A DNA stretch of 34,149 bases from Chthoniobacter flavus (GTDB lineage: Bacteria; Verrucomicrobiota; Verrucomicrobiia; Chthoniobacterales; Terrimicrobiaceae). Location of the stretch: the NCBI GenBank assembly GCA_020718585.1, contig DYRS01000006.1:1-34149 (forward strand), in the 5' to 3' direction. The translations under genes were made by a program, and so were the position numbers. Positions 3,606-31,451 of this stretch are shown piece by piece (within the stretch, counting starts at the first letter, position 1; the number at the start of each line of letters is the position of its first letter). Under the pieces are notes generated by a model. It did not search any database and was not told the origin of the DNA. It saw only the letters and a list, made by a program, of their open reading frames with translations.

Positions 3606-3724
3606 CGCCTTCACTGTGTCCGGCATCATCCATCCGGGTGACAAAGCTGCGGGGTTCCGCAGCGGCGAAGCACCCGGAATTTTCGGCCATTGACTTTGAC
3701 CGGCGGCATGCCGACAACCGGACG

Positions 3725-5359: not shown

Positions 5360-5368
5360 CATCCGGAG

Positions 5369-8295: not shown

Positions 8296-8301
8296 TCAAC
8301 C

Positions 8302-9495: not shown

Positions 9496-9502
9496 GGGAT
9501 GA

Positions 9503-11744: not shown

Positions 11745-12983
11745 ATGGCGCGCCTGAATTCCAACTACTTCAAGCTCAAAGCCGGCTACCTATTTCCGGA
11801 GATCGGCCGACGGGTCAAGGCGTTCACCGATGCGAACCCCGCCGACGCCGCGCGGATGATCCGCTGCGGGATCGGCGATGTCACCGAGCCGCTCCCGGCG
11901 GCCGTTCGCGCGGCGATGCACGCGGCGGTGGACGAGATGGGCGCGCGCGAATCGTTTCGCGGATACGGGCCCGAGCAGGGATACGAATTCCTCCGGCGGG
12001 CGATCGCGGAAAACGACTACCGGGCGCGCGGGATCGAGGTTGCCGACGACGAGATTTTTGTTTCCGACGGCTCGAAGTGCGACTGCGGGAACATCCTCGA
12101 CATCTTCGGGCACGACAACCGGATCGCGGTGATGGACCCGGTTTATCCGGTCTATGTGGATACGAACGTGATGGCCGGGCACACCGGTGCGGGCGACGAG
12201 GCCGGGCTTTACGACGGGCTTGTCTATCTCCCATGCACTGCGGAAAACGGGTTTGTGGCGACGGTTCCGCACGAGCGGGCCGACATCATCTACCTCTGCT
12301 ACCCGAACAACCCGACCGGTGCCACCGCCACGCGCGCGCAGCTTGCGGCATGGGTGGATTACGCGCTCGCGAACGACGCGGTGATCCTCTTCGACGCCGC
12401 CTACGAGGCGTATATCGGCGACCCGGAGATCCCGCATTCGATCTACGAGATCCCCGGAGCGAGGAAATGCGCGGTCGAGTTCCGCAGCTTTTCAAAAAAC
12501 GGAGGATTCACCGGCGTGCGCTGCGCATTCACCGTCGTGCCGAAGGACCTCGTGTGCGCGGACGCATCGGGAGAATACCGTCCGCTGCATCCGCTCTGGA
12601 ACCGCCGGTTCAGCACGAAATTCAACGGCGTCGGCTACGTCACCCAGCGGGCCGCCGAGGCGCTCTATTCGCCCGGTGGAAAATCCGAGGTTGCCGCGCT
12701 CATCGGCCACTACATGGGAAATGCGGCGATCCTTCTCGAAGCGGTTCGCGCCTGCGGCCTCGCGGTCTATGGCGGCACGAACGCCCCCTACATCTGGGTG
12801 CGCGGTCCGCAGGGGCTGACGAGCTGGGAGATTTTCGACAAGGTTCTCACCGGTGCGAACGTCGTCGTCACCCCGGGCAGCGGGTTCGGCCCCGCCGGCG
12901 AAGGCTATTTCAGAATCTCTTCCTTCAATACCCGCGAGAACGCCCTCGAGGTCTCCGCGCGTCTCCGCGCACTCGCATGGTAG
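11745..12983 (+). CDS. dapL: LL-diaminopimelate aminotransferase
   Basis: [27 protein letters not shown]..., [91 protein letters not shown]. Confidence 0.96.
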
Positions 12984-13972
12984 CCCGACCTCCAATGAAC
13001 CGGCGCGCGAAAGCCCTGGACCTCGGATCATCCGCCACCGGCGTCGGCCGGTGGATCCTCCCAGCGCTCCTGCTGTCGCTCCTCCTGCACGCGGGGTTTT
13101 TATTGTGGACGAACCGCGTGACGATCAACTCCCTGAGCGGGGTGGACTACGATCCGTCCCCGCCCAGGCGGTTCCAGCTCGAAAGTGTGGATCTCGATCC
13201 GAGGCTGTTGAACCCCGCCCCTTCGGAGGTGAAACGTCCGGCCGCATCCCCGGTCGCGGTCAAGCTGCCCGACGAGTCGGTCGCGCTCGAAAAAGCCGGA
13301 GGCGAAAACCTCGCGATCCCGCCCGCCCAGAAAATTGAAAGCGCGATCCTCGCGGAGACCCCGCAGTTCGCCCTGCCTCCGCTGCAAAACGCGATCGCCT
13401 CGGTGCGCTCGCCCGAGGCCGCATTCCCGGAGGGTCCGTCGCTGGCTGATGAACTCCTCGCCGAGAAGCAGGTCATCGCAGGCACCTCCGGCATCGGGTT
13501 TCCGGGTCCGGATTCTCCCGGTGGAGCGAGCAAGTCCGGCGGCGGCCCGGGCGAGCGAGGGTTCAGCGACCTCGACGACCTGCTTGCGCAGACCGGTCCG
13601 CTCACGCCGGAGACCGCGCCGATCCTCATGCCGACCGACCTGCTCTTCGACTACGATGCCCCCGCCCTTCGCGAGCAGGCGGTCGCCAGCCTCCAAAAAC
13701 TCGGCATCCTCATCCGAAGAAACCCCGGCGCAAAATTTGTCATCGAAGGCCACTCGGACTCGTTCGGATCGGAACAATACAACCTCGACCTCAGCCGACG
13801 CCGCGCGGAATCGGTCAAGGCATGGCTCACCGAAACCATGAGCCTGCCGGAATCCTCAATCCAGACGGTCGGCTACGGGAAGTCGCGCCTGATCGCCCCC
13901 GCCGACGGAACGATCGAAGACCAGCAGATCAATCGGCGGGTCGAAATTGTCATCCGCTCGGAAAAACCGTAA
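12977..13972 (+). CDS. Cell-envelope protein: single N-terminal TM helix, Pro-rich TonB-like linker, C-terminal OmpA-like peptidoglycan-binding domain
   Basis: [20 protein letters not shown] (TM); C-terminal [63 protein letters not shown]...[14 protein letters not shown]...[11 protein letters not shown] (OmpA signature). Start at 12977 or 12995; overlaps the dapL stop. Confidence 0.88.
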
Positions 13973-14135
13973 GGAGCCGTCAAGAAATAAGGTTTGCATG
14001 AAATGGCGCAGCAGATTTTTGTCGATGGCAAGGCGTGAGCACCAAGCAGCCTCGTTGCCGGCTGTAAGAAGCGAGCAACGCAGCCATCGGCAAAAAGATC
14101 CAGTCAGGCTGTAAAGATTATTTCTTGACGGCTCC
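13973..14135. mobile_element. MITE-like non-autonomous element with perfect terminal inverted repeats and TAA flanks
   Basis: GGAGCCGTCAAGAAATAA (13973-13990) and TTATTTCTTGACGGCTCC (14118-14135), flanked by TAA at 13970-13972 and 14136-14138. Subterminal arms tttttgtcgatggc / gccatcggcaaaaa and a core CGTTGC/GCAACG. No internal ORF. Confidence 0.7.
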
Positions 14136-14192
14136 TAATGCCCGAGACTCCCGCCGAAGCCATCAGCCGTTGGCTCTTGAAAAAATGCCCGG

Positions 14193-14822
14193 CTACGCGA
14201 CCGCTGCGTCGTAGTTTTTTTTGGCGGCCGCCCACGAGACCGTGTTCCACCAGGCTTTGAGGTAGTCGGCCCGGCGGTTTTGGTAGTTCAGGTAATACGC
14301 GTGCTCCCAGACATCGCATCCGATGACCGGGGTTCCCGTGCATTCGACGACTCCCGCCATGAGCGGGTTGTCCTGGTTTGGGGTCGAGCACAGGCAGAGC
14401 GATTTGTCCGGCTTCACGCAGAGCCAGACCCAGCCGCTGCCGAAGCGCGCGAGCCCGGCCGCCTCGAATTTCTCCTGGAACTCGGCGAAGCTGCCGAAGG
14501 ATTTGGTGATCGCGTCGCCGAGCGATCCGGTCGGCGCGCCGCCGGCGTTCGGGCCCATGAGCGTCCAGAAAAAGCTGTGGTTCCAGTGGCCGCCCCCGTT
14601 GTTGCGGACCGTGCCGCGGATGGCGTCCGGCACCGACGCGAGGTCGCCGATGAGCGCGCAGAGCGGCTTTCCTGCGAGCTCGGGCGCGGATTCGAGCGCC
14701 TTGTTGAGGTTTGCGAGGTAGGTGGCGTGATGCTTGTCGTGATGGATCTCCATCGTGCGGGCGTCAATGTTTGGCTCGAGTGCCGTGGCGGGATAGGGGA
14801 GTGCGGGAAGTTCGAATGGCAT
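14193..14822 (-). CDS. sodA: Superoxide dismutase (Fe/Mn family, Mn-like signature)
   Basis: [41 protein letters not shown]...[13 protein letters not shown]...FGSGWVWL...QDNPLM...[28 protein letters not shown]. Confidence 0.95.
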
Positions 14823-14936: not shown

Positions 14937-15010
14937 GTGACGAATTTGTCACAATCCCGCCCTTTCTCCGGCGGGGTCCGATGAGGATCGTATGGGCCAA
15001 TTCTGCCCAT
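14937..15010. promoter_or_regulatory. Dyad-symmetric sequences in the divergent sod / giant adhesin intergenic region
   Basis: GTGAC-GAATTT-GTCAC (14937-14952) and ATGGGC-CAATTCT-GCCCAT (14992-15010); the second contains the proposed ATG of the adhesin. Confidence 0.35.
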
Positions 15011-18000
15011 GTCCGGATATTTTCACTCCTCCGATCTGCAACCGACCTCCGCGCCACCGCGCGGGGGGGCGGAAGCGCATGGTTCGGAGCGGGGGAGATC
15101 ATCGAAATCCCGGTGCCTGGCATCCCGTGTTTTCGAGATTTGCAGGCGCGCGGCCCTTGCTGTCCTCATGGCCCTTGTCGTGATAAGCTCTCCGTCCACG
15201 GTCCTTGCCGGTGACATCCTTCGCGGCGGGGCGACCTCGGGAAACAGCCGGAAAAGCTCCGAGGTCAGGGCAAATGCCGGGGCATCCGCCGCGTCGCTTG
15301 CGAAGGCAAAGGCGGCGGACCGCCTCGCGCGGACCTCGCAGGCGATCGCCGCGATGGGGAACCTTCAGGCATCCGCCCGCGCGGCGGCGGGTGCCGTCCC
15401 CGACGGGCTCGCGACCGGAGGGCTGGAGCCGCTGGCTGGCGGGACATGGACCGGTGCCGGACTGCCCGCGCAATCCGGCAGCAGCGTCAGGATCAGGCAA
15501 ACCACCGCCCAGGCACTCCTCGACTGGAAAACCTTCAACGTCGGCAAGAACACCAGCCTCATCTTTGATCAATCTGCCGGCGGGAGCGACTCGGGAAAAT
15601 GGATCACCTTCAACAAGGTCTTCGACCCGTCGGGAAAACCCTCCGAAATCCGGGGCAGCATCAAGGCCGACGGCCAAGTCTATATTATCAACCAGAACGG
15701 GATCATCTTCGGTGCCGGCAGCCAGGTGAACGCACGCTCTCTCGTTGCGTCGTCGCTCCCGATCAATGACAATTTGATCGCGCGGGGGCTGCTGAACCAG
15801 AAGGCGAATGCTCCGGAGTTTCTCTTTTCGGCACTGACCACCGGCACGTTCAACCCGGCTGTAGCGGACCCGGCCAGCGGAAGCCCGGCCCAACTTGATC
15901 CAAGCAAGCCGGTGGGGGATGTTGTTGTCGAGCGCGGTGCGCTGCTTGCGAGCCCGGTGACCAACGAAGGCTACGGCGGGAAGATCATGCTCGTCGGAAA
16001 AAACGTACGCAACGACGGGGTCATTGTCACGCCCGCCGGGCAAACGATCCTCGCGGCTGGGCTGCAGGTCGGGATTGATGCGCACAGTGCGGCAGATCCC
16101 AGCCTGCGCGGGCTCGATGTCTTTGTCGGTGCTGTCAGTGCCGCAACCCTCGGCTCCGGGGGCGAGGCAAAAAATACCGGCCTGATCGAGGCCGCCCGCG
16201 GGAGCATCATCATGGCAGGCAAACACGTCCTCCAATACGGCGGGCTTGAGAGCAGCACCTCGGTGGACGTGAACGGGCGAATTGACCTCCTCGCCAATTA
16301 CGGGGCGGTCGCCAACCCCGCCTACGATCCCACCAACCCGGCCATCGGTTTGCCCTTCCTATTCCAGGAGAGCGGGCTTGTGGAGCTGGGGCCCGATGCT
16401 GTGGTCCGCGTCCTTCCCGAGTGGTCCAGCCTGAAAACGCTTGCGACGGCATCCCTGCCCCTGCGCTCGCAGGTCAACATCCAGGGCCGGACTGTTCACC
16501 TTTCGAAGGGCTCGATGGTGCTCGCCCCGAATGCGAAGGTGAACGTCGATGCGGGCGAATGGATCTTCGAGCCATCGGTGACCAGTCCCCGCTCGACGTT
16601 CGTTTATTCGGCGGGACAGATCTCCATCGACGAGGACGCGTTCATCGACGTTTCCGGCTCGACCGACGTTTTCACCCCGCTCGCCCAGCACATCATGACC
16701 TTGCAGCTTCGCGGCGCCGAGCTGGCGGACTCCCCCCTACAGCGTTCGGCCGGACTGCGCGCGGTCGATCTGGTCATCGACATGAGGGTGAGCGGATCAT
16801 TTTACGGGCGCGAATGGGTCGGCACTCCGCTGGGCGACGTGACCGGATACCTCAACCTCATCGAGCGCACCGTCGGACAGCTCACGATGGAGGGTGGCGA
16901 TATCAATCTCCGGTCCGGCGGCTCGGTGGTCCTCCGCAAGGGTGCCTCCCTTGACGCCTCGGGCGGATTCACCCGCAACGAAGGCGGAAAAATCCAAACC
17001 TCACGGGTCCGTCTCGGACGCTATCTCATTGATATCGACGAGGCGACACCCGACCGGATCTACGATGGCCTCTACGACGGGAAAATGACCCGCTCGTCGA
17101 AAAAATGGGGGGTTTCCAAAACCTACCTCAACGCCCTGGCTCCGCTCGGTGGTTACTCTCAGAAGGAATACATCGCCGGAGCCAATGCCGGAACGATCTC
17201 GATCTCCGCACCATCAATGGCGCTCGATGGGGATATGAAGGCCGGGCGCATCATCGGGCCGCGGCAACTGCGCGACTCGATGGTCTCCAGCAGCCTGCCC
17301 GGCGTCGGCCGCCTGGAGCTTCGTTTCGAGGCCCAGGATGATGACCCCACGAGGAGCAGCAACAAGTTCGGACACATTTCGCCCACCCCGCCGACCATCA
17401 CATTCAGTCAGGGGGCAAGCGCGGCTGGCGTCCCCGTATTCTCGATGGCGGCCGACGATTCGGCTCCCGCGCTTCCTGCGAGCCGGCAATCTCATGTCGC
17501 ACTTTCTCCCGACCTGCTTGGCGATGACCGTTTTGGCGAGGTCCTCATCCGCAACGGTGACGGCGATATTAAAATCGGCAAGGACACAACATTGCGCGTG
17601 CCGGCCGGCGGCGAACTCGACTTCACCGGCGCCAACATTTTCGTTGACGGCACTATTTATGCACCGGGCGGAACGGTCGATCTTGTGGCCTATACGTTCT
17701 CTCCCTACCGCGCGAAGTTTTTGACTGCCGCGGATGTGCTTCCCGCTCCGAACTTCACGCGGGGGATCGTCAGGCTCTCGCCGGGTGCCACGATCAGTGC
17801 CGCAGGACAGATTCATGACGACCGGCCGACCGGCGGCATTGGCAATACCGCGCCCATCGCCAGAGCGGGGGGATCGGTCACACTCGAAGGCTTCACTGTC
17901 GAACTCGAAGAGGGCAGCATGGTGGATGTCTCCGGCGGCATCGCCTATGGTGCCAACGGAAAACACAAATACGGCGACGCCGGTTCGATTTCCCTCCTCG

Positions 18001-21000
18001 CCGGCCAAGACCCAAACCTGACGGGAATTTTGGGTGGCCGACTCGTGCTCGAGGGTCGCCTGGCCGGGTATTCCGGCGCACACGGGGGATCGCTTACGAT
18101 CAAGGCGCCTCTCGTTCAGGTCGGGGGTGCCTCGGCCCGCGAGAACACCTTTGTCGTGCAGCCGGGGTTTTTCAACGAGGGCGGGTTCGCACGGTTTGAG
18201 CTGATCGGGATTGGAGCCACGGAAGCCGGGGTAACGGTTCCGGGCGTCTTCGTTGTTCCGGGAACGATCATCGAGCCACGGGTCACCAGCGCGGTCGCGG
18301 TTCCGTTCGGTCGGCGCGGTCGCCCGGAATTCCGTCCTGTTCAAAAACCGGTCGGCCTGCGCGATCCTGTGAGCCTCACGTTGCGGGCTATCGGAGCCAA
18401 GGATAACCTCAGCAATATCCCGAGTGTTCGTGGCGATCTGATGTTCGGTGAAGGGACTGCGATCCTAGCCGATCCCGGCGCGGAAGTTGCCCTCATCGGA
18501 CAGACCGTCACGGTTCTCGGGACAGTGAGTGCTCCGGGGGGCAGCATTACGATTGATGGCGGGGACGCCTATCCGGAGTTGGTTGCCGGGCCTGTCGCGC
18601 TGCCCACCGTTTATATTGGACCCTCTGCGCGCCTTTCTGCGGCCGGCACAACCGTCCTGCTCCCCGATTCCTATGGGCGCAGGCGCGGATACGTCCTGCC
18701 CGGTGGAACCATCGAAATCTCCGGCAATATCGTGGCGGAGGCGGGTGCTGTGCTCGATGTCTCTGGCACCGCCGACTTTCTCGACTTCACCCCCGCAGAG
18801 CTCGGGCTGGTCGAATCCCCGAACGTACCAAAAAATAGTGGCGTCAATGCGCCTCTGTATTCGCTCCAAGTGCAGCGCACGCGCGTCGAGAGCAATGGTG
18901 GCGCGATCTTTCTCAATGGGTCTCAGATGCTGCTCTCCGATGCGACGCTGCTGGGCCATCCCGGCGGGCCGACCGCACTTGGCGGCTTCCTCTCGGTCTC
19001 CTCGGGCCGCTACGTGCCGCCCGGCACCCCCAGCACGACGGCCGATATCAACCTGGTCGTGAAGCAAGGAGGCAGCGTTCTCGGCGGCGGCTCCAGAGGG
19101 GTTGGAATCCCGGTCTTTGATTCATCGGGCACCCCGGTCGTTGGCATGGGGCATTTTTCAGCCGACCGGTTCCTTGCGGGCGGGTTTTCGGCACTTGAGC
19201 TGGGCGGCAACGTGCGGTTCAACGGGCCGGTATCGATCACTGCGCCTCTGGCGATCCTGCTCGGCAGCGGCGGAGTTGTGGAAGCCAATTCCCCGGTCAA
19301 GCTTTCGGCTCCCTACATTCGGGTCGGACAACCATTTCCAGATCCGCTTGCAGCGGATGAAAAGGCTGCGCTTTTTCGGGCCTTCGACAATAACGGGAAC
19401 GAACTCCCCAACTTCAACCCTTCGCCAACTTCCGGTGCCGGGAGCATCGATCTCACCGCAAGCCTCCTCGATGTCGGAACGCTTATTCTCAACAATATCG
19501 GCAGGGCCGAGCTTTCCGCACCTGGCGGTGACATCCGTGGCAACGGGGTCTTTGTGATGGCTGGCGATCTGGTGCTGAAGGCCGGGCAGATCTATCCCAC
19601 CACCGCCGCCAAGTTCGATATTTTTGTTTATGACAACACGGTCACAGGCGCGCCTGGCAGCGTGAGCGTCCAGGGTTCGGGCACCCGCCCGCTGCCGATG
19701 TCGGCAGGCGGAAGCCTGCGAATCATGGCCTCCGTCATCGAACAGGGGGGGACGCTGCGCGCTCCCTTCGGGAATATCGCTCTGGGCTGGGATGGGATTG
19801 TTGAGGAGCCCACAAACGATGTGGTCGGAGATGCTGCGGGTGCCATGACAACCCCGGTCACCCAGCGGCTCACGCTTTCGGCAGGAAGCGTCACTTCGGT
19901 TTCCGCCATCGATCCGCTCACCGGCGCGGCTGCCATCATCCCATATGGCATGAGCCCGGACGGGCTCCGGTGGATCGATCCCACCGGGCTCGATGTCACG
20001 CTTGCCGGTCTTCCTGAAAAGGCCGTTTCGTTTGGTGCGCGGAATATCGACATGGCGGCGGGTTCGGTGGTGGATGTCCGCGGCGGAGGCGACCTGTCTG
20101 CCTACCGCTGGGTGCAGGGAGTCGGAGGATTCGGCGACATCCTGGCCAACGAAAATAGCTTTGCCGTCGTGCCCGGCTACGCATTCAACTATGCGCCATA
20201 CGCCCCATTTAATCCGAGTGCGGACGATCTGCTCGGGGATCGCGGGTATCAGAACTCGAATCTGAAAGTTGGGGATACGATCACGCTGCGAGGCAGTGCT
20301 GCACTGCCTGCCGGAACTTACACGCTGCTGCCGGCGCGCTATGCGCTGATGCCCGGCGGGGTTCTTGTGACGCCGTTCGACACGCTGGAAGTGAGTTCGA
20401 GAGATCCCTTCTCACGTTACCAATCGAGCACGCCGGGAACAATCGCCCTTGAGGACGGTTCGTATCTTGTCGCCGGACGCGTGTCCAATGCGCTGGCACC
20501 CGGGCGGGGAGCTTCCGCAACAGCCACCACATTTCAAGTGCTGACCAGTGAAGCCATCCGCGCACGTTCGCAATACGAGGACTATCATGCCAACGACTTC
20601 CTGCGGCGGGCCGCCGCCGATCATGAACAGTCGGCCCAGCGGCTCCCGTCCGACGCTGGGAGCGTGCAATTTTTCTCAGCCTCGGGGCTTGTTCTCGAGG
20701 GTGCCGTCCTGGCCCAGGCTGCCTCGGGCGGGAGGGGCGGGTTTGTTGACATTGCGGTGCCGGGAGCGGTCTCGATCACGGGGGGGGGCGCCGCGCCCGC
20801 TCCGGGGACAGTCGCATTGAAAGCCTCGGTGCTTTCTTCATGGGGAGTCGAGAGCCTGCTCGTCGGCGGGAGCCGCAGCGGCTCCGCGCTCGATGTCCGC
20901 GCTACAAGCATCACCCTCGACAACCCCGGATCCGCACTCACGGGGCCGGAAATTATTCTTGCGGCGCGGCAGAACCTCACGCTTGCCGATAACGCGCAGC

Positions 21001-24000
21001 TCGTGTCCACGGGAGAACTCACCCAACCGGGTGCTGCCCTGACGATCACGGGGGACGGTGCGCTGGTCCGCGTGACCGGAGATGGCGCCGCGACAGTTTC
21101 CCGCACGGGCTTCGTCAACTCCCCGCTGGTCGGCCTCACCATCGGGGCGGCCGCTGTGGTATCGGGCACAGGGATCACGCTTGATTCGACCTACGACACC
21201 GACCTCGACCCGACAGCAAGACTCGAAGGTGAGAATTTTTATCTCAACAGCGGGCGAATCAGCATTCTGCTCGACAACCCGGCACCCGCCGCGCCTGCCT
21301 TTGGCCTCGTGCTCGCCGGCCCGGCGCTCCAGAGCCTCGCCGGGGCGGGATCTCTCTCCCTTCTCAGCTACTCATCGCTCGACGTTTACGGCATCGGGAC
21401 GATTCCTTTCGGCAACCCCGAGTCGCTCGTTCTGCGCGCCGGCGCGGTCCGCGGGTTCAACCAAGCGGGGGGAACCGTCACCATCCAGGCCGGAGAGCTT
21501 CTCCTCGACAACTCGCAGGGAGCGCTTGCTCCCGCAGACGAGCAGGCCGCCAATGGCACGCTCGTCCTCGACATCGGCACTCTCCGCGTCGGAAAAAATG
21601 TGGTTGCCGTCAGGCAGTTTACCGACCTCGTCGTCAATGCGAGCGGCGGCATTTTTCTCGATGGCGAGGGTGGCCTTGCCACATCGGGGAATTTCCGGGG
21701 TGCCGTCTCCGGCATTACCGCCGCCTCTGCCTCGCGGCAGGCACTTTCGGCTGACGGGGACTTTGTCCTGCTGGCAGCGGTCGGCACTCCCACCTACCAA
21801 AGCGGCCTGGGCGCAACCCTTGCGGTCTCGGGCCGCACGGTCACTTTGAACCCCGGCATCGTTCTCCCAAGCGGACGGCTTGAAGTGACCTCTTCGGCAG
21901 GCGCATTGTCCCTTGGGGGGAATGTGGACGTTGCCGGGCGGGCGCTTGTCTTTTTTGACGTCGAGCGGTTCACCGGCGGCGGATCGCTCGACCTTTCGGC
22001 AACCGGTGGCGATATCACAATCGCCGGGGCCGTCGATGTTTCTGCGCCAGCGGGCGGTGGCAATGCCGGGTCGGTCGCTCTTTCCGTGCCCGATGGCGCC
22101 CTGCACCTGACTGGCTCGCTTGCGGGCACTCCCGGCGCGGGAGGGGGAGCCGGCGCATTCTCGCTCGACACGCTGGGCCTCAGCGCGCCGGGCGAATTCG
22201 ATTTCCTGAATGCAACGCTCGATGCGGGATCGTTCTTCGCCTCCCGGTCGTTCCGCGCGCGCACCGGAGACGTCACGCTTTCCGGGTCCGCCACGGCAAG
22301 GGACTTCCGGCTTTTTGCTGACACCGGTGCCATCACGATATCAGGGACAATTGATTCCCACGGAGCGACCGGCGGCAGCGTTCACCTTGCTTCCCATCAT
22401 GACCTCACCGTCGCTTCCGGCGCGCTCATTACTGTCGAGGGCGACGATTTCGACAATGCTGGAAAAGGAGGACGCGTGACGCTCGAGGCGGGAACCCAGC
22501 GCGATGGAGCCGCCGGGCCGGGCGAGGTCGTCATCGCCGGAGGTTCAAAAATCGACCTCTCGGTGCTGGCGAATGACGTGGCGGGCTTAGGCACCAGCAC
22601 CTTCCGGGGGCAGTTCCAAGGGACCCTCCACATCCGGGCACCTCAGAATGCGGGCGGGACAGATCTTAAGGTCGCCGCGATCAATGGGCTCATCGAGGAT
22701 GCCTCCAGCCTCCTCGTGGAAGGCTTCCATGTCACCGACCTCACAAACCCTGCTGGAAGCCAGATCACAGCGGCTGTCCGCTCGGCAATCCAAACAAACG
22801 GAAACACCTTCGGTGCGAATACCGGAACCCTCTTGACCGCTGGCTCAATCACCCAGCGCCTTCTGGCATCGAATGCCGGACTGGCCGCCACCCTGGTGGT
22901 GGCACCCGGAGCGGAAATTGTGAATCGCACCGGTGGCCTGTCCCTGCTCACCGACTGGAACCTGGCGGCATTCCGCTTCGGGCTAGAAAATGCCCCCGGC
23001 GTGCTCAGCATCCGGGCGGCTGGCGATATCGTTTTTGAAGGGGCGTTGAGCGATGGATTCAATGGTGGAACAAGCCTCTGGGCGTCCCCGCTCATGGCGA
23101 ATAACCCGCTCCAGCCGATGAATGCCCAGACGTGGTCCTACCGGATCACTGCCGGTTCGGATACCCAATCCGCCGATGTCTCAGCCATCCGGGGAGCGGG
23201 CTCGATCAAGCTCGGCAAGGACTACGGCGCAGCCGCCACGGCAGGTGGTGCCACCGCCTACACCCCCGACTATGTGGCGTCCCGCTACCAGGCGATCCGC
23301 ACCGGCTCAGGAGGCATCTCCCTGGCTGCGGCGACAGACATCCAGCTTCTCAACCAGTTCGCCGTCATTTACACGGCTGGCACCCGGCTTTCTTCCGAAA
23401 ATTCGATTTATGCGCTCGGTGATTTTGAGATCCCCCACCTTGTCCCCGATGCCGGGCCAACGAATGTCGCCGATTCCTACGTTCTCGGAAAGCAGCAACA
23501 GGTTACGACCGCACAATACTCGGTCGCGGGAGGTGACATCTCACTCACCGCAGGCAATGACATTGCCCGCCTCACTCGCAATTCCTCCGGGCTCATCGAC
23601 GATTCCTCTCGCCAGACACCCACCAATTGGCTCTACCGCAGAAGCTATGTGGACGAATCGGGAGAATACGGACGAAGCGGCCTCAAATTTACTACTTCTG
23701 GCTCGCGCTATGTGAACGATCCGGATTCCTCGACAACGTGGTGGGTGGATTTCACAAACTTTTTTGAGGGCGTTGGCACCCTCGGCGGCGGAAACATCCG
23801 GATTTCCGCCGGGCAGGATATCCGTAATATCGACGCCGTGGCACCCACGACGGCGCGGGCGCCGCGCGGGATCGCCGACGAATCACTGATCCTCGAAATG
23901 GGAGGCGGCGACATTTTAATCAATGCCGGACGCGATATCAGCGGGGGGCTCTACTATGTCGAGCGGGGCGGCGGCGTTCTGAAGGCCGGTCGAGATGTCA

Positions 24001-26441
24001 CAACCAACCAATCCCGCTCGCTCTCCCTCGGCATTTTGAAAAACCTCAACAACCCGAATGAAGTCGGCGTTCCCTCCACGGCCAAACAGAATTATATCCT
24101 CGACCCTTCGACATTCCTCCCGACAACGCTGTTTGTCGGGCGTGGCGGTTTTGACATTTCCGCGCGCGGGGATGTCCTGGTCGGCCCTGTCGCCAATCCC
24201 TTCCTTCTCCCGCAGGGGATCGGAAACAAATTCTGGTATAAGACCTACTTTAACACTTACGGCGAGAGCAGCTACTTGAATGTCTCTTCGGTGGGCGGGG
24301 ATGTCACCTTCCGCACCGAGGTCACTCTGCCGGGCAGCCCTGCCCCCGCTCCGATCCTCGGCCTCTGGATGGAAAAACAAAATGTTTGGAGCACGGGCAG
24401 CACAGGGGCCGCATCCAACTACCAGCCGTGGTTGCGGCTTTCTGAGAGCAGCCTGAGCCCGTTCAGCAACACCATTTTCGGCCTCATGGCACCGAATCTT
24501 TCGGCCTCGGCACTCAGCGGAGCGATCCACCTTGTCGGCGACCTCACGTTGTTTCCGTCGGCCACCGGCGGGCTGGAAATCGTCGCCGCCCAGGGTCTCT
24601 CTGGATTCGAGCCCTCCGGTTACAAAACATTCGATACGACGGCAGGCAATTGGACTGACCGCATCTGGTCCTCATCAACCATCAATGTTTCGGATACCAA
24701 CCCGCTCGGAATCCCGGGCAAGACCTCCCCGTTTGCGTATTTCTCGACGCTTGCAAGGGACTTGTCCCGCCCGCCGCAGGGTGACTTGCCAACTGCTCAG
24801 GTCGCCGCCCAGACGACCGGTTCGTTTCTGGATTTCATCAGTGTCGCCTTCACAGAATCCGGTGCGTATTCCGGTGCGGACGCCTTATCGCCAACCAAGC
24901 AGGCGCGGCACGCGGCGGGCATTCTCCACTCCGGGGATACGAATCCGGTGCGCGTTTATGCCTCGGACGGAGATATTTCCGGCCTGACCCTTTTCACCCC
25001 GAAGGCTGCACAGATCACGGCGGGCAACGACATTTCCGATGTGGCATTTTACATCCAAAACGTGTCCGAGGACGATGTGTCGTTTGTGTCGGCCGGCCGC
25101 GACATTGTGCCTAACAATCCGAATACGTCTGCCCGCCAAGCTGCTGCAGCGCCCGGGAATCTTCTTGCACAGAGCCAGGTCGCATTGCCCGGCGACCTTC
25201 AGATTTCCGGTCCGGGCTCGCTGCAGGTATTGGCGGGCCGTGATTTGGATCTCGGGACCGGTGCCAAGGGCGGCGTGGGACAGGTCGGCCAGGGGATCAC
25301 AAGTATCGGCAACGCCCGAAATCCCTACCTGCCATTCGGCGGCGCCTCTCTTTACGTCGGCGCTGGCATCGGGCCGTCGGCCGGACTCGCGAATTCCGAT
25401 ATCAAGGCAGATGACTTCCTTGACGAGTATCTGGACGAGTATGAAGGGGAGCTTCAGGAGGACGGCCAGGAGCTGGATCCCGATGCGATGACCGACGCCC
25501 AGCGCGCGCAGCTTGCCCACCGGGTTCTGGCATTGGTTTTGCGTGATACCGGACGCAAGGCGGCAGACACCGGGAGCTACGAGACGGGCTTCGCGGCGAT
25601 CAATACGCTTTTTGGAAGCCTCACGAAAGGCGGGGATATCAACACCCGCAACCGCGATATCCGCACCCGCAGTGGGGGGGGAATCAATATCTTCGCTCCC
25701 GCCGGCTCCCTCATCTTGGCGGAAAGCACGACCGACAGGGTCACCGAGCGCCCGAAAATTGGGAATTTCTCAGGGACCGGAAGCCTCATGCTCGTCAGCA
25801 ACACGCAGAATGCCGACAAGGCACCCGAAGGAATCGTCACCGAATACGGCGGCGGCATCGGCATCGTCACCGATGGCGATGTCTCGATCGGCCAGGGCCG
25901 CATATTCACACTGCGCGGCGGGAGCATCGTGATCTGGTCCTCGACCGGAGATATTGCGGCCGGTGCCGCCTCGAAGACTGTTTCGGCCGCACCACCGACC
26001 CGTGTTCTGATCGATCCGGTTTCGGCTACTGTCGAGACCGACCTTTCCGGCCTTGCCACCGGCGGTGGCATCGGCGTGCTCAGCACCGTCGAAGGAGTCG
26101 AAGCGGGCGATGTTGACCTCATCGCCCCGGTTGGCACGGTCGATGCCGGAGATGCCGGCATCCGGGCCACGGGCAACCTCAACATTGCTGCAGTCTCGGT
26201 TCTCAATGCCGATAATATTTCCGTGGGAGGTTCCTCGCAGGGGGTTCCCTCGGCACCGACTGTCGCAGCACCAAACATCTCAGGCCTCAGTTCCGCATCA
26301 AGCTCGACCGCAGCCACCTCGACCGCAGCAAATTCCGTCAGCAACCAAGCCCAGCCATCACCCACTCCCGCCGATGAGGCACCCTCAATCATCACCGTAG
26401 AAGTCCTCGGCTACGGGGGAGACGACGAAGAAGAAGGGTGA
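15009..26441 (+). CDS. Giant filamentous-haemagglutinin-family exoprotein (TpsA-like adhesin, DUF3739-like C-terminal region)
   Basis: Single uninterrupted 3810-aa ORF. Extended basic N-region plus hydrophobic signal (RRAALAVLMALVVISSPSTVLAGD); TPS domain (ALLDWKTFNVGKNTSLIF...GQVYIINQNGIIFGAGSQVNARSLVASS); long Gly/Asn-rich beta-helix-like repeats; C-terminus IFTLRGGSIVIWSSTGDIAAG...GDVDLIAPVGTVDAGDAGIRATGNLNIAAVSVLNADNISVGGSSQGVP...PSIITVEVLGYGG. Confidence 0.92.
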   Translation: MSGYFHSSDLQPTSAPPRGGAEAHGSERGRSSKSRCLASRVFEICRRAALAVLMALVVISSPSTVLAGDILRGGATSGNSRKSSEVRANAGASAASLAKAKAADRLARTSQAIAAMGNLQASARAAAGAVPDGLATGGLEPLAGGTWTGAGLPAQSGSSVRIRQTTAQALLDWKTFNVGKNTSLIFDQSAGGSDSGKWITFNKVFDPSGKPSEIRGSIKADGQVYIINQNGIIFGAGSQVNARSLVASSLPINDNLIARGLLNQKANAPEFLFSALTTGTFNPAVADPASGSPAQLDPSKPVGDVVVERGALLASPVTNEGYGGKIMLVGKNVRNDGVIVTPAGQTILAAGLQVGIDAHSAADPSLRGLDVFVGAVSAATLGSGGEAKNTGLIEAARGSIIMAGKHVLQYGGLESSTSVDVNGRIDLLANYGAVANPAYDPTNPAIGLPFLFQESGLVELGPDAVVRVLPEWSSLKTLATASLPLRSQVNIQGRTVHLSKGSMVLAPNAKVNVDAGEWIFEPSVTSPRSTFVYSAGQISIDEDAFIDVSGSTDVFTPLAQHIMTLQLRGAELADSPLQRSAGLRAVDLVIDMRVSGSFYGREWVGTPLGDVTGYLNLIERTVGQLTMEGGDINLRSGGSVVLRKGASLDASGGFTRNEGGKIQTSRVRLGRYLIDIDEATPDRIYDGLYDGKMTRSSKKWGVSKTYLNALAPLGGYSQKEYIAGANAGTISISAPSMALDGDMKAGRIIGPRQLRDSMVSSSLPGVGRLELRFEAQDDDPTRSSNKFGHISPTPPTITFSQGASAAGVPVFSMAADDSAPALPASRQSHVALSPDLLGDDRFGEVLIRNGDGDIKIGKDTTLRVPAGGELDFTGANIFVDGTIYAPGGTVDLVAYTFSPYRAKFLTAADVLPAPNFTRGIVRLSPGATISAAGQIHDDRPTGGIGNTAPIARAGGSVTLEGFTVELEEGSMVDVSGGIAYGANGKHKYGDAGSISLLAGQDPNLTGILGGRLVLEGRLAGYSGAHGGSLTIKAPLVQVGGASARENTFVVQPGFFNEGGFARFELIGIGATEAGVTVPGVFVVPGTIIEPRVTSAVAVPFGRRGRPEFRPVQKPVGLRDPVSLTLRAIGAKDNLSNIPSVRGDLMFGEGTAILADPGAEVALIGQTVTVLGTVSAPGGSITIDGGDAYPELVAGPVALPTVYIGPSARLSAAGTTVLLPDSYGRRRGYVLPGGTIEISGNIVAEAGAVLDVSGTADFLDFTPAELGLVESPNVPKNSGVNAPLYSLQVQRTRVESNGGAIFLNGSQMLLSDATLLGHPGGPTALGGFLSVSSGRYVPPGTPSTTADINLVVKQGGSVLGGGSRGVGIPVFDSSGTPVVGMGHFSADRFLAGGFSALELGGNVRFNGPVSITAPLAILLGSGGVVEANSPVKLSAPYIRVGQPFPDPLAADEKAALFRAFDNNGNELPNFNPSPTSGAGSIDLTASLLDVGTLILNNIGRAELSAPGGDIRGNGVFVMAGDLVLKAGQIYPTTAAKFDIFVYDNTVTGAPGSVSVQGSGTRPLPMSAGGSLRIMASVIEQGGTLRAPFGNIALGWDGIVEEPTNDVVGDAAGAMTTPVTQRLTLSAGSVTSVSAIDPLTGAAAIIPYGMSPDGLRWIDPTGLDVTLAGLPEKAVSFGARNIDMAAGSVVDVRGGGDLSAYRWVQGVGGFGDILANENSFAVVPGYAFNYAPYAPFNPSADDLLGDRGYQNSNLKVGDTITLRGSAALPAGTYTLLPARYALMPGGVLVTPFDTLEVSSRDPFSRYQSSTPGTIALEDGSYLVAGRVSNALAPGRGASATATTFQVLTSEAIRARSQYEDYHANDFLRRAAADHEQSAQRLPSDAGSVQFFSASGLVLEGAVLAQAASGGRGGFVDIAVPGAVSITGGGAAPAPGTVALKASVLSSWGVESLLVGGSRSGSALDVRATSITLDNPGSALTGPEIILAARQNLTLADNAQLVSTGELTQPGAALTITGDGALVRVTGDGAATVSRTGFVNSPLVGLTIGAAAVVSGTGITLDSTYDTDLDPTARLEGENFYLNSGRISILLDNPAPAAPAFGLVLAGPALQSLAGAGSLSLLSYSSLDVYGIGTIPFGNPESLVLRAGAVRGFNQAGGTVTIQAGELLLDNSQGALAPADEQAANGTLVLDIGTLRVGKNVVAVRQFTDLVVNASGGIFLDGEGGLATSGNFRGAVSGITAASASRQALSADGDFVLLAAVGTPTYQSGLGATLAVSGRTVTLNPGIVLPSGRLEVTSSAGALSLGGNVDVAGRALVFFDVERFTGGGSLDLSATGGDITIAGAVDVSAPAGGGNAGSVALSVPDGALHLTGSLAGTPGAGGGAGAFSLDTLGLSAPGEFDFLNATLDAGSFFASRSFRARTGDVTLSGSATARDFRLFADTGAITISGTIDSHGATGGSVHLASHHDLTVASGALITVEGDDFDNAGKGGRVTLEAGTQRDGAAGPGEVVIAGGSKIDLSVLANDVAGLGTSTFRGQFQGTLHIRAPQNAGGTDLKVAAINGLIEDASSLLVEGFHVTDLTNPAGSQITAAVRSAIQTNGNTFGANTGTLLTAGSITQRLLASNAGLAATLVVAPGAEIVNRTGGLSLLTDWNLAAFRFGLENAPGVLSIRAAGDIVFEGALSDGFNGGTSLWASPLMANNPLQPMNAQTWSYRITAGSDTQSADVSAIRGAGSIKLGKDYGAAATAGGATAYTPDYVASRYQAIRTGSGGISLAAATDIQLLNQFAVIYTAGTRLSSENSIYALGDFEIPHLVPDAGPTNVADSYVLGKQQQVTTAQYSVAGGDISLTAGNDIARLTRNSSGLIDDSSRQTPTNWLYRRSYVDESGEYGRSGLKFTTSGSRYVNDPDSSTTWWVDFTNFFEGVGTLGGGNIRISAGQDIRNIDAVAPTTARAPRGIADESLILEMGGGDILINAGRDISGGLYYVERGGGVLKAGRDVTTNQSRSLSLGILKNLNNPNEVGVPSTAKQNYILDPSTFLPTTLFVGRGGFDISARGDVLVGPVANPFLLPQGIGNKFWYKTYFNTYGESSYLNVSSVGGDVTFRTEVTLPGSPAPAPILGLWMEKQNVWSTGSTGAASNYQPWLRLSESSLSPFSNTIFGLMAPNLSASALSGAIHLVGDLTLFPSATGGLEIVAAQGLSGFEPSGYKTFDTTAGNWTDRIWSSSTINVSDTNPLGIPGKTSPFAYFSTLARDLSRPPQGDLPTAQVAAQTTGSFLDFISVAFTESGAYSGADALSPTKQARHAAGILHSGDTNPVRVYASDGDISGLTLFTPKAAQITAGNDISDVAFYIQNVSEDDVSFVSAGRDIVPNNPNTSARQAAAAPGNLLAQSQVALPGDLQISGPGSLQVLAGRDLDLGTGAKGGVGQVGQGITSIGNARNPYLPFGGASLYVGAGIGPSAGLANSDIKADDFLDEYLDEYEGELQEDGQELDPDAMTDAQRAQLAHRVLALVLRDTGRKAADTGSYETGFAAINTLFGSLTKGGDINTRNRDIRTRSGGGINIFAPAGSLILAESTTDRVTERPKIGNFSGTGSLMLVSNTQNADKAPEGIVTEYGGGIGIVTDGDVSIGQGRIFTLRGGSIVIWSSTGDIAAGAASKTVSAAPPTRVLIDPVSATVETDLSGLATGGGIGVLSTVEGVEAGDVDLIAPVGTVDAGDAGIRATGNLNIAAVSVLNADNISVGGSSQGVPSAPTVAAPNISGLSSASSSTAATSTAANSVSNQAQPSPTPADEAPSIITVEVLGYGGDDEEEG
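15440..15790 (+). other. TPS (haemagglutination activity / FhaB N-terminal secretion) domain of the giant exoprotein; approximate bounds
   Basis: WKTFNVGKNTSLIFDQ..., GSIKADGQVYIINQNGIIFGAGSQVNARSLVASS; the canonical NPNGI is NQNGI here. Confidence 0.8.
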
Positions 26442-26781: not shown

Positions 26782-28329
26782 ATGAGCAACGCGATGCAAG
26801 TAGACTTCGCTGGAAGGGTGGGAAGAATCATGCATTCACGCAATACACGAACGATCAGACACCATGCCTTGGATACTGCAAAGACTTTCTCTCGGAGTAT
26901 CTTGTCCGGTTCAGCAGACCTCCGGATTCTCGGCCTGTTGCTGTTCGGTGTTTCCGTGCTCGTGGTCCTTCTCCGTGTCCCCCACTTGAAATGTAAGCTC
27001 CCTCCGCCCGGGCCTTCGTTGTCGGTGGATCGGTTTCTTCCAGGACGGGAACTTGAACTGCCGGGGAAATTTGCGCTTCTCACAGGCAGGACCGACCCAG
27101 ACCCTCAATCGCTGGCGACCGGTTTCCGGAACCGGACTCGATCTTTTCCGGAGCGGCTGGAGTCCGCAAGACAACTGGCACTGCTCGGCAGCCCGTCCGC
27201 CAGACGAATTCTGATGGATGTGTTCCTCTCCGAAACCCGGGAGCATCAACTCGAACTGGCGCGGATGCTTGCGAGGACCGACAAGGGTTCGTTCGAGGAG
27301 GCCCTGGGAAAAATCTTGGAGACCGGCACCGATGCGGAAGCGGCGTCCGCGATCCAGGCACTCGCTGTGGTGGGAGGGGAGGAAAATGTCACCCGCCTGG
27401 GCGACATCATGAACGACCCCGGCTGGCCCACCCACCTGCGCGGGGAAGCCGCCCAGGCGCTCCTGCAAACCCGCGACGAACAATTGTGCCGTCTCGCCAT
27501 CCGGGGCATGGCCACCATCGGCACCGAGGCGGAAACCGGAAGTCTCGCGGCCATCCTCCACAACCCGGACTGGCCGCAATCCCTGAGGGTGCAGGCGGCT
27601 GTCGGTCTCGGAAAAGTCGCCACCCCCCGCTCCGGCGACGAATTGATCGCGGCGTTCAGCGAGTTCTCGGATGAAGACGTGCAGGGAGTGCTTCTCGATG
27701 CGCTCGGGCATTTTCCTTTTCTCCAGATCGCCGGGACATGGAGAGCCTTTCTCGACGACCCCTCGACTCCGAATGGCTTGAGGGTGGCTGCCGCGGAAGC
27801 GCTCGCCAATTCTTCCGGCGACGCGGTCCCGTTCCTGGAGTCGCTGGCTTCCTCGGATCGTGATGCCGACGTGCGAGAGATGGCGGCCTGGGCACTTTCG
27901 ACCCAGGTGCCCGGCGGCACGCTCGGGCCCAGAATCGCTGACATGATCCGCTCGGAAGCGGAGCCCGATGTTCGTCGCAGGCTCTACGAGAGTTTGCTCG
28001 TCCAAGCAGAAAATCCCTCGGAGTCAGTCCTCCCCATCATCCAGCAGGAGGAGGATCCCGCCGCACGGGTGGCCGCCATGAACGCGGTCGGCGATGCCGT
28101 GGGACACAGGACATCTCCTTCGTTGTCCGCCACATTCGATTCCCAGATGGTTCCTGAACTCCAGTCGGTCGCGCTCGGAAATTCCAGCCCGAACCTGCGC
28201 ATGCGCGCGGTGTTCGCCCTCCGCCGTGCCGCAACCCCCGCATCCCTAGCCGCGCTCCAGATCATTTCCACGACACCAACCACAGAAATCGCCACCGCAG
28301 CCCGCAACGGGCTGCAAGCCTCCAGATAA
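26782..28329 (+). CDS. Membrane-anchored HEAT-repeat protein
   Basis: 515 aa; N-terminal TM ILGLLLFGVSVLVVLL; tandem alpha-helical repeats such as NDPGWPTHLRGEAAQALL / HNPDWPQSLRVQAAVGLG / DDPSTPNGLRVAAAEALA. Start at 26782 or 26830. Confidence 0.8.
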   Translation: MSNAMQVDFAGRVGRIMHSRNTRTIRHHALDTAKTFSRSILSGSADLRILGLLLFGVSVLVVLLRVPHLKCKLPPPGPSLSVDRFLPGRELELPGKFALLTGRTDPDPQSLATGFRNRTRSFPERLESARQLALLGSPSARRILMDVFLSETREHQLELARMLARTDKGSFEEALGKILETGTDAEAASAIQALAVVGGEENVTRLGDIMNDPGWPTHLRGEAAQALLQTRDEQLCRLAIRGMATIGTEAETGSLAAILHNPDWPQSLRVQAAVGLGKVATPRSGDELIAAFSEFSDEDVQGVLLDALGHFPFLQIAGTWRAFLDDPSTPNGLRVAAAEALANSSGDAVPFLESLASSDRDADVREMAAWALSTQVPGGTLGPRIADMIRSEAEPDVRRRLYESLLVQAENPSESVLPIIQQEEDPAARVAAMNAVGDAVGHRTSPSLSATFDSQMVPELQSVALGNSSPNLRMRAVFALRRAATPASLAALQIISTTPTTEIATAARNGLQASR

Positions 28330-28335
28330 AACACC

Positions 28336-29571
28336 ATGAAAACCACAATCCCAATCCTGCTGAAAGCCGCACTGCTTGTCCTCCTTGTCACCGGCTCATC
28401 CGCCTTGGCACAGTCGATCTCCTGGTCGGTCAACATCCTTCCGCCCGGATCCAGCGTGATCACTTGGTCCACGACCTCCCCTGTCGCGAACGGCACGCTC
28501 ACCAAGTCCGGAAAGATCACCTTCAACAGCTTGTCCAACATCGACTTCCACTTCGCGGCCAACCCGGGCTACCAACTCATCCACGTCTTGAAAAACGCCG
28601 AGGATGAGATCGTCTGGGTCAACTCGCATGGCGGGAACGATTCCTTCGGGCCGGTGAAGAAGGCCCATACCATCACAGTGATCTGCGAACAGCTCAATCC
28701 CACCGGCAATTTCACAGGAACCTACACGGACGCAAAAAATCTTACAGCCATCGCCGACGTCACCGGGAACTACAACGGAACCACCACCATCAAAAACACC
28801 TCCCGCACCTACAACGCGGATGTTGCGATGGATGATTCCGGAAAACTGAGCGCGATGGGAACGGCGACCGGCATCGCCAACAAAGACGGTGGTCCCCTGG
28901 TCTCCGGCTCCGCCGGTTCCGTGAAGACGGTCGATGACAAGCCCTATGCCGACCTCAAGGGTTCGTTCAAAGGCTCCGTGGATGGCAAGCCCGCCACGAC
29001 TTCCGGCGCCGCCTCGGGAGATCTTGTCTTCGAGACGAGCGACCCCCAGACACAACTCGCCGGAACGGCGTCCGGTTCGGCGGTTGTGGATGGCAAAAAA
29101 TCCACAGCCAAGCCGACAGCGGGAAATCTCAATGTGCCGGCTGCGGACGTGTTCAAGCTCAAGAAATCCTGGGGGCTGACGTTGTCGATTGTCGAGGTGC
29201 CGGCCACGGCCAAAGTCAAAAAGCATGTGACAGCCTCCGGGGTTCTGCGCCTCACGAGCGGGGAATCCAGCAAATTCCTGCCCAAGAAGGTGACCTACTC
29301 GAAGAAAACCGGCTACATCGTGAGCTTCGCCTCCGGACAAAAGCTGGATACTTTGGGAAATCCCGTTTATGTGAAAAATCCGAAGACCGGCGCGAACAAG
29401 CTGGACAGCAAAGGAAATCCTATCTCGGTGATCGACAAAAAAAGCACCGTGAAAATCTCAAAGATGCTCCTCAACAGATCCGACAGAGCTTGGGTTCCGG
29501 CCAGCGGGCTCATGGAATACAAGTTCCTCGGTCAAAAAGGAAAAGGAGACCTCGCGTCGTTTTTGGATTAG
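28336..29571 (+). CDS. Secreted protein of unknown function with an InlB B-repeat-like N-terminal module
   Basis: Signal peptide MKTTIPILLKAALLVLLVTGSSALAQS; ANGTLTKSGKITFNSLSNIDFHFAANPGYQLIHVLKN...GPVKKAHTITVICE resembles divergent InlB B-repeat domains; Lys/Gly/Ser-rich C-terminal half. Confidence 0.65.
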   Translation: MKTTIPILLKAALLVLLVTGSSALAQSISWSVNILPPGSSVITWSTTSPVANGTLTKSGKITFNSLSNIDFHFAANPGYQLIHVLKNAEDEIVWVNSHGGNDSFGPVKKAHTITVICEQLNPTGNFTGTYTDAKNLTAIADVTGNYNGTTTIKNTSRTYNADVAMDDSGKLSAMGTATGIANKDGGPLVSGSAGSVKTVDDKPYADLKGSFKGSVDGKPATTSGAASGDLVFETSDPQTQLAGTASGSAVVDGKKSTAKPTAGNLNVPAADVFKLKKSWGLTLSIVEVPATAKVKKHVTASGVLRLTSGESSKFLPKKVTYSKKTGYIVSFASGQKLDTLGNPVYVKNPKTGANKLDSKGNPISVIDKKSTVKISKMLLNRSDRAWVPASGLMEYKFLGQKGKGDLASFLD

Positions 29572-29580
29572 GGTCATCCG

Positions 29581-30315
29581 GTGGAATTACATCGGACCCA
29601 TGACACCGGAAGCGTCGCGGAATCCGGCGACGTTCCGGTTGTGGAATTGAAAAATGTGCGGCGAACGTTCGATGGCGGTCGCATTGAGGCCCTGCGCGGG
29701 ATCAACCTCGCGATCCATCGCAACGAATTTGTCGCGATCTCCGGGCCGAGCGGATGCGGCAAGTCGACACTTCTCAACCTGATGGGGGTGTTGGACGAAC
29801 CGGATGCGGGAGAGGTTCTGTTCGGCGGGAGGCGATTGGATGGCATCTCCGCGCGCACCAGGTTCCGCTCCCGCGAGGTCGGATTTATTTTCCAGGCTTT
29901 CCACCTTCTGCCGACACTGACCGCACTTGAAAACGTGCAGATCCCGATGTTTGAGATGCCGTGGTCCTGCCGGGAGCGCGTGAACCGGGCACGCCAGTTG
30001 CTTGAGGAAGTGGGGCTCGCCAGTCGCCTCAACCACCTGCCTTCGGAATTATCCGGAGGCGAACGCCAGCGGGTCGCCGCCGCCAGAAGCCTGGCCAATG
30101 AGCCCAAACTCATCCTGGCCGACGAACCGACCGGAAATCTCGACTCCGGGAGCTCGACACAGTTGATGGAGCTGTTAACCACACTCCACGCTCGGAAGAA
30201 TTTGACTCTCATTGTGGTCACTCATGATCCGGCCTGGTCCGGGCGAGCTGGATGCGTGGTCCGGATGCGCGACGGGCAGATTGTCGGCGACATTTTCCGC
30301 GAGCCAGCGCCATGA
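29581..30315 (+). CDS. ABC transporter ATP-binding protein (LolD/MacB type)
   Basis: Walker A GPSGCGKST, Q-loop FIFQAFHLLPTLTALENV, signature LSGGERQR, Walker B LILADEPTGNLD, H-loop VVTHD. Start GTG 29581 or GTG 29641. Confidence 0.95.
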   Translation: MELHRTHDTGSVAESGDVPVVELKNVRRTFDGGRIEALRGINLAIHRNEFVAISGPSGCGKSTLLNLMGVLDEPDAGEVLFGGRRLDGISARTRFRSREVGFIFQAFHLLPTLTALENVQIPMFEMPWSCRERVNRARQLLEEVGLASRLNHLPSELSGGERQRVAAARSLANEPKLILADEPTGNLDSGSSTQLMELLTTLHARKNLTLIVVTHDPAWSGRAGCVVRMRDGQIVGDIFREPAP

Positions 30316-31451
30316 GGTTCCCAGCCTTTGTCTGGAGAAATCTCTGGTGCCGACGCAGCAGAAGCCTTCTGACCCTAGCGGGCGTGGCCGTTGGCGTTGC
30401 CGCCGGAGTTTCGATGTTTGCGGTCGCACGCGGTTTCGACCGCGAAATCCTGAACAAATATGCGGTGCGCGACACGCAGATGATCGTCACCGGTGCCACA
30501 AAGAAGAGGCCGTTGCCGACGCTTGTCGATCAGCGGGTCGGGGATGAACTGGCCAAACTGCCGGGAGTGCTGGGCGTCGCAGGGGCCCTTTGGGATGTTC
30601 AAAATGTCGAAGGATCGACGGCTTTGGGGGTGATGGGTTGGGAGACCGGCAGCTACCTTTGGAAACACCTCGCTCTTCGGTCGGGCGAGCAGCTCATCAG
30701 CCAAGGCACCGAGGATACGGTCTATTTGGGCCAGATCGCTTCTGGCTGGCTCAGGAAGAGCGAAGGCGGCTCCATCGTCTTTGAAACCGATCGGCCGGTT
30801 GCGAGCAGGTTCCGGGTGGCCGGAGTTTTTGAAAGTGCGTCTCTTGCGGAAAGTGCCGCAGCGATCATGCGGCTGGAGATCCTCCAGTCGCTCCTTGGAT
30901 GCGAAGGGAAAGTGAACTACTTCAACCTCCATCTCGATCCGCAAATCAGCCCGCAACAGTTCGAGGCGTTACGGGAAATGATCCGCGCCCGGTTTCCGGA
31001 CCTCAACGTGCTGCGGGCGGATGAAATCGCATCGAACAACACCGGACTCCGCGCAGCCAGGGCCATGAGTATCGCCACCTCCGCGATCGCCCTCCTCATT
31101 GGAACGCTCGGCGTCACGAACAGCGTCATGATGAGCGTCTTCGAACGCTCCCGCGAGGTCGGCCTCCTCATGGCTGTGGGTTGGAAAACCCACCGCATTG
31201 TGGCCATGATTTTGATGGAATCGGTTTTTCTTTGTCTCGGCGGAGCCGCCGCCGGGAGCGCGGTCGCTGTCGCAGGGGTGACGGCCCTGCAGAGCATGGA
31301 ATCTCTCCACGGAAGAATCTCCGCGGATTTCGCTGCAGACCTGATCCTGTCGGCGTTTCTGGTGGCCGCTGCGGTCGGCCTGCTGGGGGGGCTTTACCCT
31401 GCCTATCTGGCTTCGCGGCACCAGCCTTGTGAGGCGTTGCGCCATGAGTGA
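30312..31451 (+). CDS. ABC transporter permease, FtsX/MacB type (paralog 1)
   Basis: MRFPAFVWRNLWCRRSRSLLTLAGVAVGVAAGVSMFAVARGF... ATSAIALLIGTLGVTNSVMMSVFERSREVGLLMAVGWKTHRIVAMILMES...GLYPAYLASRHQPCEALR; 4-bp ATGA overlap with the ATPase gene. Confidence 0.92.
   Translation: MRFPAFVWRNLWCRRSRSLLTLAGVAVGVAAGVSMFAVARGFDREILNKYAVRDTQMIVTGATKKRPLPTLVDQRVGDELAKLPGVLGVAGALWDVQNVEGSTALGVMGWETGSYLWKHLALRSGEQLISQGTEDTVYLGQIASGWLRKSEGGSIVFETDRPVASRFRVAGVFESASLAESAAAIMRLEILQSLLGCEGKVNYFNLHLDPQISPQQFEALREMIRARFPDLNVLRADEIASNNTGLRAARAMSIATSAIALLIGTLGVTNSVMMSVFERSREVGLLMAVGWKTHRIVAMILMESVFLCLGGAAAGSAVAVAGVTALQSMESLHGRISADFAADLILSAFLVAAAVGLLGGLYPAYLASRHQPCEALRHE

Follow-up and report, generated by a model that had tools for sequence, protein, structure and literature searches.

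The tpsA gene and its surroundings

The window, i.e. the whole stretch of DNA analysed (34,149 nucleotides), corresponds to the full length of contig C332 in a Chthoniobacter flavus assembly (2.58 Mb, 345 contigs). It carries tpsA (15009..26441, forward strand, as for all the tpsA features below), which encodes a giant exoprotein of 3810 aa of the two-partner secretion (TPS) type with a C-terminal DUF3739 domain. As proposed in an earlier note made from the letters of the sequence, the translated frame is intact over 3810 codons, with no internal stop. This frame is not due to chance since homologues found across the same order (about 3,600 to 4,040 aa, complete or nearly so) align along its length. 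The note had also recognized TPS and DUF3739 regions in the protein, and profile searches matched both.

The N-terminus shows, by eye on the translation and on the relatives, the hydrophobic core of a candidate extended Sec signal peptide (15150..15209) followed by a conserved post-cleavage motif, AGDILRGG, with an AxA-like site. Between this signal peptide and the TPS domain, the alignment and the AlphaFold model (model residues 18-57) place a helical segment (aa 84-123, 15258..15377), which is kept across phyla and lies outside the Pfam TPS match. The TPS domain itself (aa 154-258, 15468..15782) matches PF05860 above the cut-off (E 4e-16) and, for aa 172-250, NCBIfam TIGR01901. Its sequence profile matches the EtpA, HxuA and HMW1 structures of the PDB. 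Furthermore, the model of aa 67-420 (pLDDT 81) has the fold of the TPS domains of EtpA, HxuA, HMW1 and HpmA and, more weakly, that of FHA. The NQNGI that had been noticed in place of NPNGI is present at aa 228-232 (15690..15704); nearly all aligned relatives have an N-x-N-G form of this motif.

At the other end of the protein, the DUF3739 domain (aa 3637-3747, 25917..26249) covers nearly the entire PF12545 model (E 1.4e-29). It is folded in the structural model, where it has no fold relative in the PDB, and our literature search found no paper on DUF3739. It is followed by a disordered tail (aa 3751-3810, 26259..26438; pLDDT <50 at model residues 281-340). Motif counts and alignment identified in this tail a conserved short motif, PSIITVEVLGYGG (aa 3792-3804, 26382..26420), whose core VEVLGYGG is found in nearly all TpsA tails. 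In the complete TpsA that have it, the strict motif has a single copy, always close to the C-terminus. A looser form, like SIITVEVLGYGG, is present in 42 of 45 tails versus 0.15 expected after shuffling. As the motif was defined on these same sequences, this count reflects how conserved it is and does not test it independently. In some relatives from Methylococcales, the motif is followed by two nearby cysteines; some TpsA are known to be anchored through a disulphide near the C-terminus, within a periplasmic domain (PMC8151025). We hypothesize that the tail may stay in the periplasm, where it could contact TpsB, the LamG domain described below or TonB.

TpsA was also considered as a contact-dependent inhibition protein (CdiA); this was rejected since its C-terminus consists of DUF3739 and a disordered tail and the next gene encodes a HEAT-repeat protein. 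Across tpsA, no sigma-70 promoter was found above chance. Terminator-like matches are more numerous than in shuffled sequences, yet they are scattered and mostly lie within the frame.

Both neighbours of tpsA are outside the system. On the left, a superoxide dismutase gene (14193..14822, reverse strand) has its best relative (87%) in a genome of the same genus, G001, and the contig therefore fits this genome bin. On the right, the HEAT-repeat gene (26782..28329, forward strand; Pfam HEAT_2) has no full-length relative in the genus, and an empty-site comparison there did not reveal the insertion point of tpsA. Directly after it, 28336-29571 encodes a secreted-looking protein of 411 aa with no Pfam match. 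Other genes were noticed by eye in the window: a frame at about 13000-13972 whose product has a membrane anchor resembling that of TonB and a C-terminus resembling that of OmpA and, near the contig end, two FtsX/MacB-like permease genes, paralogues on opposite strands (30252-31451, forward; 32481-33977, reverse).

An unlinked TpsB heads a cluster encoding a TonB-type motor

In two-partner secretion, tpsB usually lies beside tpsA, and this arrangement is not obligatory. The earlier note saw no TpsB gene alongside tpsA, and this holds for the entire contig: a search of the genome with the ShlB and POTRA_2 models retrieved a single gene, on contig C204 (locus L006, 5499-7274; POTRA_2 4.9e-12, ShlB 2.6e-18). 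The lack of a linked TpsB thus has an ordinary answer, i.e. the TpsB is unlinked. Even with the two contigs adjoining, the positions of tpsA and tpsB imply a distance of about 13 kb or more. A second Omp85 protein, encoded on contig C141, is probably BamA-like, since it scores much higher with the general Omp85 model and is absent from the ShlB matches. The genome has one TPS protein and one TpsB, and it is very probable that the latter exports the former. Since TpsA and TpsB give different trees (see below), this specific pairing is deduced from the presence of one of each. The genome being fragmented and about 96% complete, a second TpsB or a TonB-dependent receptor may possibly have been missed. 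Of the two export routes that the note had envisaged, the unlinked TpsB gains support from this intact gene, and we found no evidence for a different route.

The TpsB gene is the first of seven. It is followed by genes encoding a DUF2341-LamG-ExbB fusion (7283-9226) that retains the motor helices of TolQ/ExbB, ExbD (9226-9627), TonB (9624-10337), a Porin_5 protein (ending at 12630), a coiled coil protein (12636-13370) and a PpiC foldase (13382-14461). The porin matches only the Porin_5 model, with no plug domain, and by eye its N-terminus has no TonB box conserved across phyla. PpiC is followed by a TPR-like gene containing a gap of 100 N (15194-15293), about 0.7 kb past PpiC. Since this gap lies within the TPR-like gene and has repeated sequence on both sides, it is unlikely to conceal a large (11-kb) gene such as tpsA. 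No cell-surface-signalling gene was recognized among the frames inspected by eye near the cluster or in the window.

Upstream of the cluster and on the reverse strand, the locus encodes a periplasmic-binding-type protein (1682-2767), a PEP-CTERM protein (2820-3788) and, directly upstream of TpsB, a DUF4143/AAA_14 ATPase (4203-5438); at this last place, genome G002 has a divergent TpsA.

Comparison with known systems

TpsA and the C204 cluster constitute a variant of the Pdt-type two-partner secretion system. In Pseudomonas aeruginosa, the locus pdtA-phdA-pdtB-exbB2-exbD2-tonB4-PA0696-PA0699 has the same succession of TpsB, ExbB, ExbD, TonB, a putative porin, a protein lacking an assigned function and a PpiC-type isomerase (PMC7035377), a likeness that we draw for PAO1 from the published description. 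This gene order is complete at L006 (5499-14461). The locus of Pseudomonas botevensis (L200) is homologous throughout this order, and its ExbB is a DUF2341/LamG fusion. In P. aeruginosa, the genes phdA-pdtB-exbB2D2-tonB4-PA0696-PA0701 share one common promoter and pdtA (TpsA) has its own, which in PAO1 is distinct from that of the exporter unit (PMC4971064). In the source genome, the giant TpsA is not beside the operon but on another contig, far from TpsB. Moreover, in contrast to the Pdt locus, no ECF sigma, FecR or STN genes and no Hxc type II system were seen beside the C204 cluster, there is no YbjN-type gene between the coiled coil and PpiC genes, and the host is a member of Verrucomicrobiota in which no TonB-dependent receptor was detected.

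Classical type Vb systems (FhaB/FhaC, HMW1A/HMW1B, EtpA/EtpB) share the TPS fold and a ShlB/POTRA_2 TpsB but, unlike the C204 cluster, no motor genes are described at their loci in a review (PMC5422565). HxuA/HxuB/HxuC of Haemophilus influenzae likewise combines a TPS pair with a function linked to TonB. However, HxuC is a TonB-dependent transporter, whereas in the C204 cluster it is the motor that is encoded, with no receptor of this kind.

Parts of this association have been reported. A 2009 paper noted that TPS, ExbBD and PA0696 are associated with PUMA3 in several proteobacteria (PMC2729926), the TonB part of the pdt locus is described as "still uncharacterized" (PMC7035377) and DUF2341 with ExbB has been mentioned merely as an unexplained appendage (PMC12505986). 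In the literature searched, we found no account of the set without signalling genes and outside Pseudomonadota, of the DUF2341/LamG-ExbB fusion within the set, or of set-bearing genomes that are apparently receptor-free.

The set recurs in distant phyla

Among 58 genomes of the order, 32 have the ExbB fusion and exactly these 32 have ShlB; DUF3739 occurs in 29 of the 32 and in one other genome. The Fisher values for this co-occurrence are extreme, but they are uncorrected for phylogeny and related genomes are not independent. At four other ShlB loci of these genomes (G033:C23, G030:C36, G039:C8 and G046:C86), neither the fusion nor DUF3739 is on the contig of the ShlB gene. In the relatives, the gene order is often TpsB-ExbB-ExbD-TonB-Porin_5-coiled coil-PpiC-TpsA, and TpsA is next to or beside the set in most of those inspected.

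A scan of named genomes for the ExbB fusion retrieved 80 loci. Twenty-two belong to Verrucomicrobiota (including Chthoniobacter, Prosthecobacter and Akkermansiaceae), two are labelled Myxococcota, one of them a MAG, and the rest, among them the P. botevensis locus, come from Pseudomonadota. ExbD is encoded at 78 of these loci, TonB at 71, the porin at 69, the coiled coil protein at 63 and TpsA or TpsB at 75, the five loci with neither being short or ended by a contig end. Hence, the set recurs in Verrucomicrobiota and Pseudomonadota, and probably in Myxococcota. The same set is also carried by plasmids of Methylosinus (C49), Cupriavidus and Klebsiella quasipneumoniae, i.e. in alpha-, beta- and gammaproteobacteria, and a rearranged or partial set by plasmids of Methylomagnum and Aquabacterium. 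The remark of the earlier note that the neighbourhood is "not proteobacterial in style" consequently applies to the flanks of tpsA, which are of Chthoniobacterales (Verrucomicrobiota) type, but not to the export cluster, whose genes all recur in Pseudomonadota.

Periplasmic-binding-type proteins, with a possible link to phosphate, were observed at loci L006, L107, L095, L076, L115, L116 and L117. Those of Pseudomonadota are PBP_like_2 proteins and their relatives in Verrucomicrobiota have no Pfam match.

TpsA as a proposed movable cargo

The source genome is not the only one in which TpsA is apart from the set: this is also the case in G001 and for the second of the two copies of G002. Four genomes (G002, G045, G051 and G057) encode two or three DUF3739 TpsA for a single TpsB. 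Furthermore, the TpsB tree unites the genus and the TpsA tree, which has long branches and was built by a quick method, is incongruent with it. These three observations lead us to read the system as stable exporter-motor genes associated with an exchangeable, movable TpsA cargo. In addition, members of a membrane protein family that have in common a stretch resembling DNAPDGREVHWSSLL are encoded after TpsA genes distant from the cluster (L077:14774-15398, L076:3488-5749 and L106:15618-17828).

What does the motor do?

The usual targets of TonB-ExbBD are receptors with a Plug domain. A search for such receptors came back empty for 15 of the 32 genomes that have the cluster, the source genome among them. 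Within the genus, none of the four genomes yielded a receptor, and three of these four possess the cluster; all these absences come from draft genomes, where a single one weighs little, and the pattern covers several genera. Among the genomes of the order, the presence of the cluster is not associated with that of Plug domains (p 0.6). Since no receptor was detected in these 15 genomes, it is probably the secretion system itself that the motor serves in them, and on the basis of these genomic data we consider a functional coupling of the two likely. Seven MotA/ExbB matches are present in the source genome, and an alternative is that TonB works in some other envelope process.

We propose that, after Sec export, the TPS domain of TpsA would engage the single TpsB of the genome, its presumed partner, and that TpsA would then be threaded across the outer membrane as a long beta-helix, the co-encoded PpiC foldase presumably keeping it unfolded. 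The ExbB-ExbD-TonB motor would act, not on nutrient receptors, but on TpsB or on the presumably retained VEVLGYGG tail, both being putative action points. The tpsA gene would have been separated as a movable cargo gene, the exporter-motor genes remaining together. Taken as a whole, this Pdt-type explanation (an unlinked TpsB exporter, a dedicated motor and a movable cargo) has in our estimate a probability of about 0.7, as judged from sequences. We are more hesitant about a direct action: the motor might drive the export or the display of TpsA, which we put forward tentatively. Just as speculative is a two-partner secretion powered by the proton motive force in at least two phyla, in which the motor would pull TpsB or the VEVxGYG tail and thereby drive export, display length or release; the ExbB would then, by hypothesis, bear a lectin-like periplasmic domain. 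Type V secretion is regarded as independent of energy input, and its reconstitution has succeeded without any (PMC5422565). Moreover, P. aeruginosa mutants in tpsA, tpsB or the tonB homologue show unchanged virulence in zebrafish and hence bring no phenotype in support of coupling (PMC2729926).

Two other functions of the motor have to be weighed. HxuA works with HxuC for haem and, by analogy, TpsA and the porin could capture a scarce nutrient (e.g. phosphate or organophosphate), the motor powering uptake through Porin_5 and being unrelated to export. The induction of the pdt genes in phosphate-starved P. aeruginosa (PMC7035377, PMC5422565), periplasmic-binding-type proteins by the cluster or TpsA at 21 loci (some overlapping, C204 included), PhoX and an alkaline phosphatase near the cluster in Methylomagnum, and the constancy of Porin_5, one of the most regular members of the cluster, all agree with such a role. 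However, the porin has no plug domain, several of the binding-type proteins match no Pfam family and have no assigned ligand, and neither the window nor C204 has a Pho-box-like site above chance, although the box of Verrucomicrobiota may differ. We therefore regard nutrient uptake as rather unlikely. It is still less likely that the TonB module is a signalling device and nothing else, as VreA-VreR-VreI in P. aeruginosa. In Methylosinus C49, Klebsiella and M. trichosporium, the cluster or TpsA is indeed flanked by genes for ECF sigma factor, FecR and STN-type proteins, as is the P. aeruginosa locus (PMC2729926). Since none was recognized beside the C204 cluster or in the gene lists of the relatives inspected, signalling looks like an add-on and not the core role.

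The distance between tpsA and tpsB could also be explained in two ways that we consider very improbable. TpsA could be an orphan, either unexported or exported by a route other than TpsB; the absence of a linked TpsB and the disagreement of the trees would be in line with this. Against it are the intact TpsB of the genome, the intact and conserved tpsA frame and the joint presence of DUF3739 and the fusion in 29 genomes, with one exception on one side and three on the other. Alternatively, TpsA could truly follow PpiC and the window contig be chimeric, as a draft in 345 contigs and the gap shortly after PpiC might suggest. Such an artefact is, however, hard to reconcile with the location of this gap inside a repeated TPR-like gene, with the intact flanks of tpsA, the left one being of same-genus type, and with the off-cluster position of TpsA in G001 and of its second copy in G002.

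The earlier interpretation of tpsA is thus partly supported, and the main interest of this locus lies in a Pdt-type system that has a dedicated proton motor in a host with no detected TonB receptor. In many bacteria that are phylogenetically far apart, the TpsB gene is accompanied by those of a full TonB-type motor. If the coupling to the motor is true, a type of secretion deemed energy-independent may be powered. The role of exbB2-exbD2-tonB4 in the pdt locus of P. aeruginosa becomes a question that can be tested, also in hosts that are not pathogens, and for which the DUF2341/LamG-ExbB fusion and the tail motif of TpsA provide two handles.
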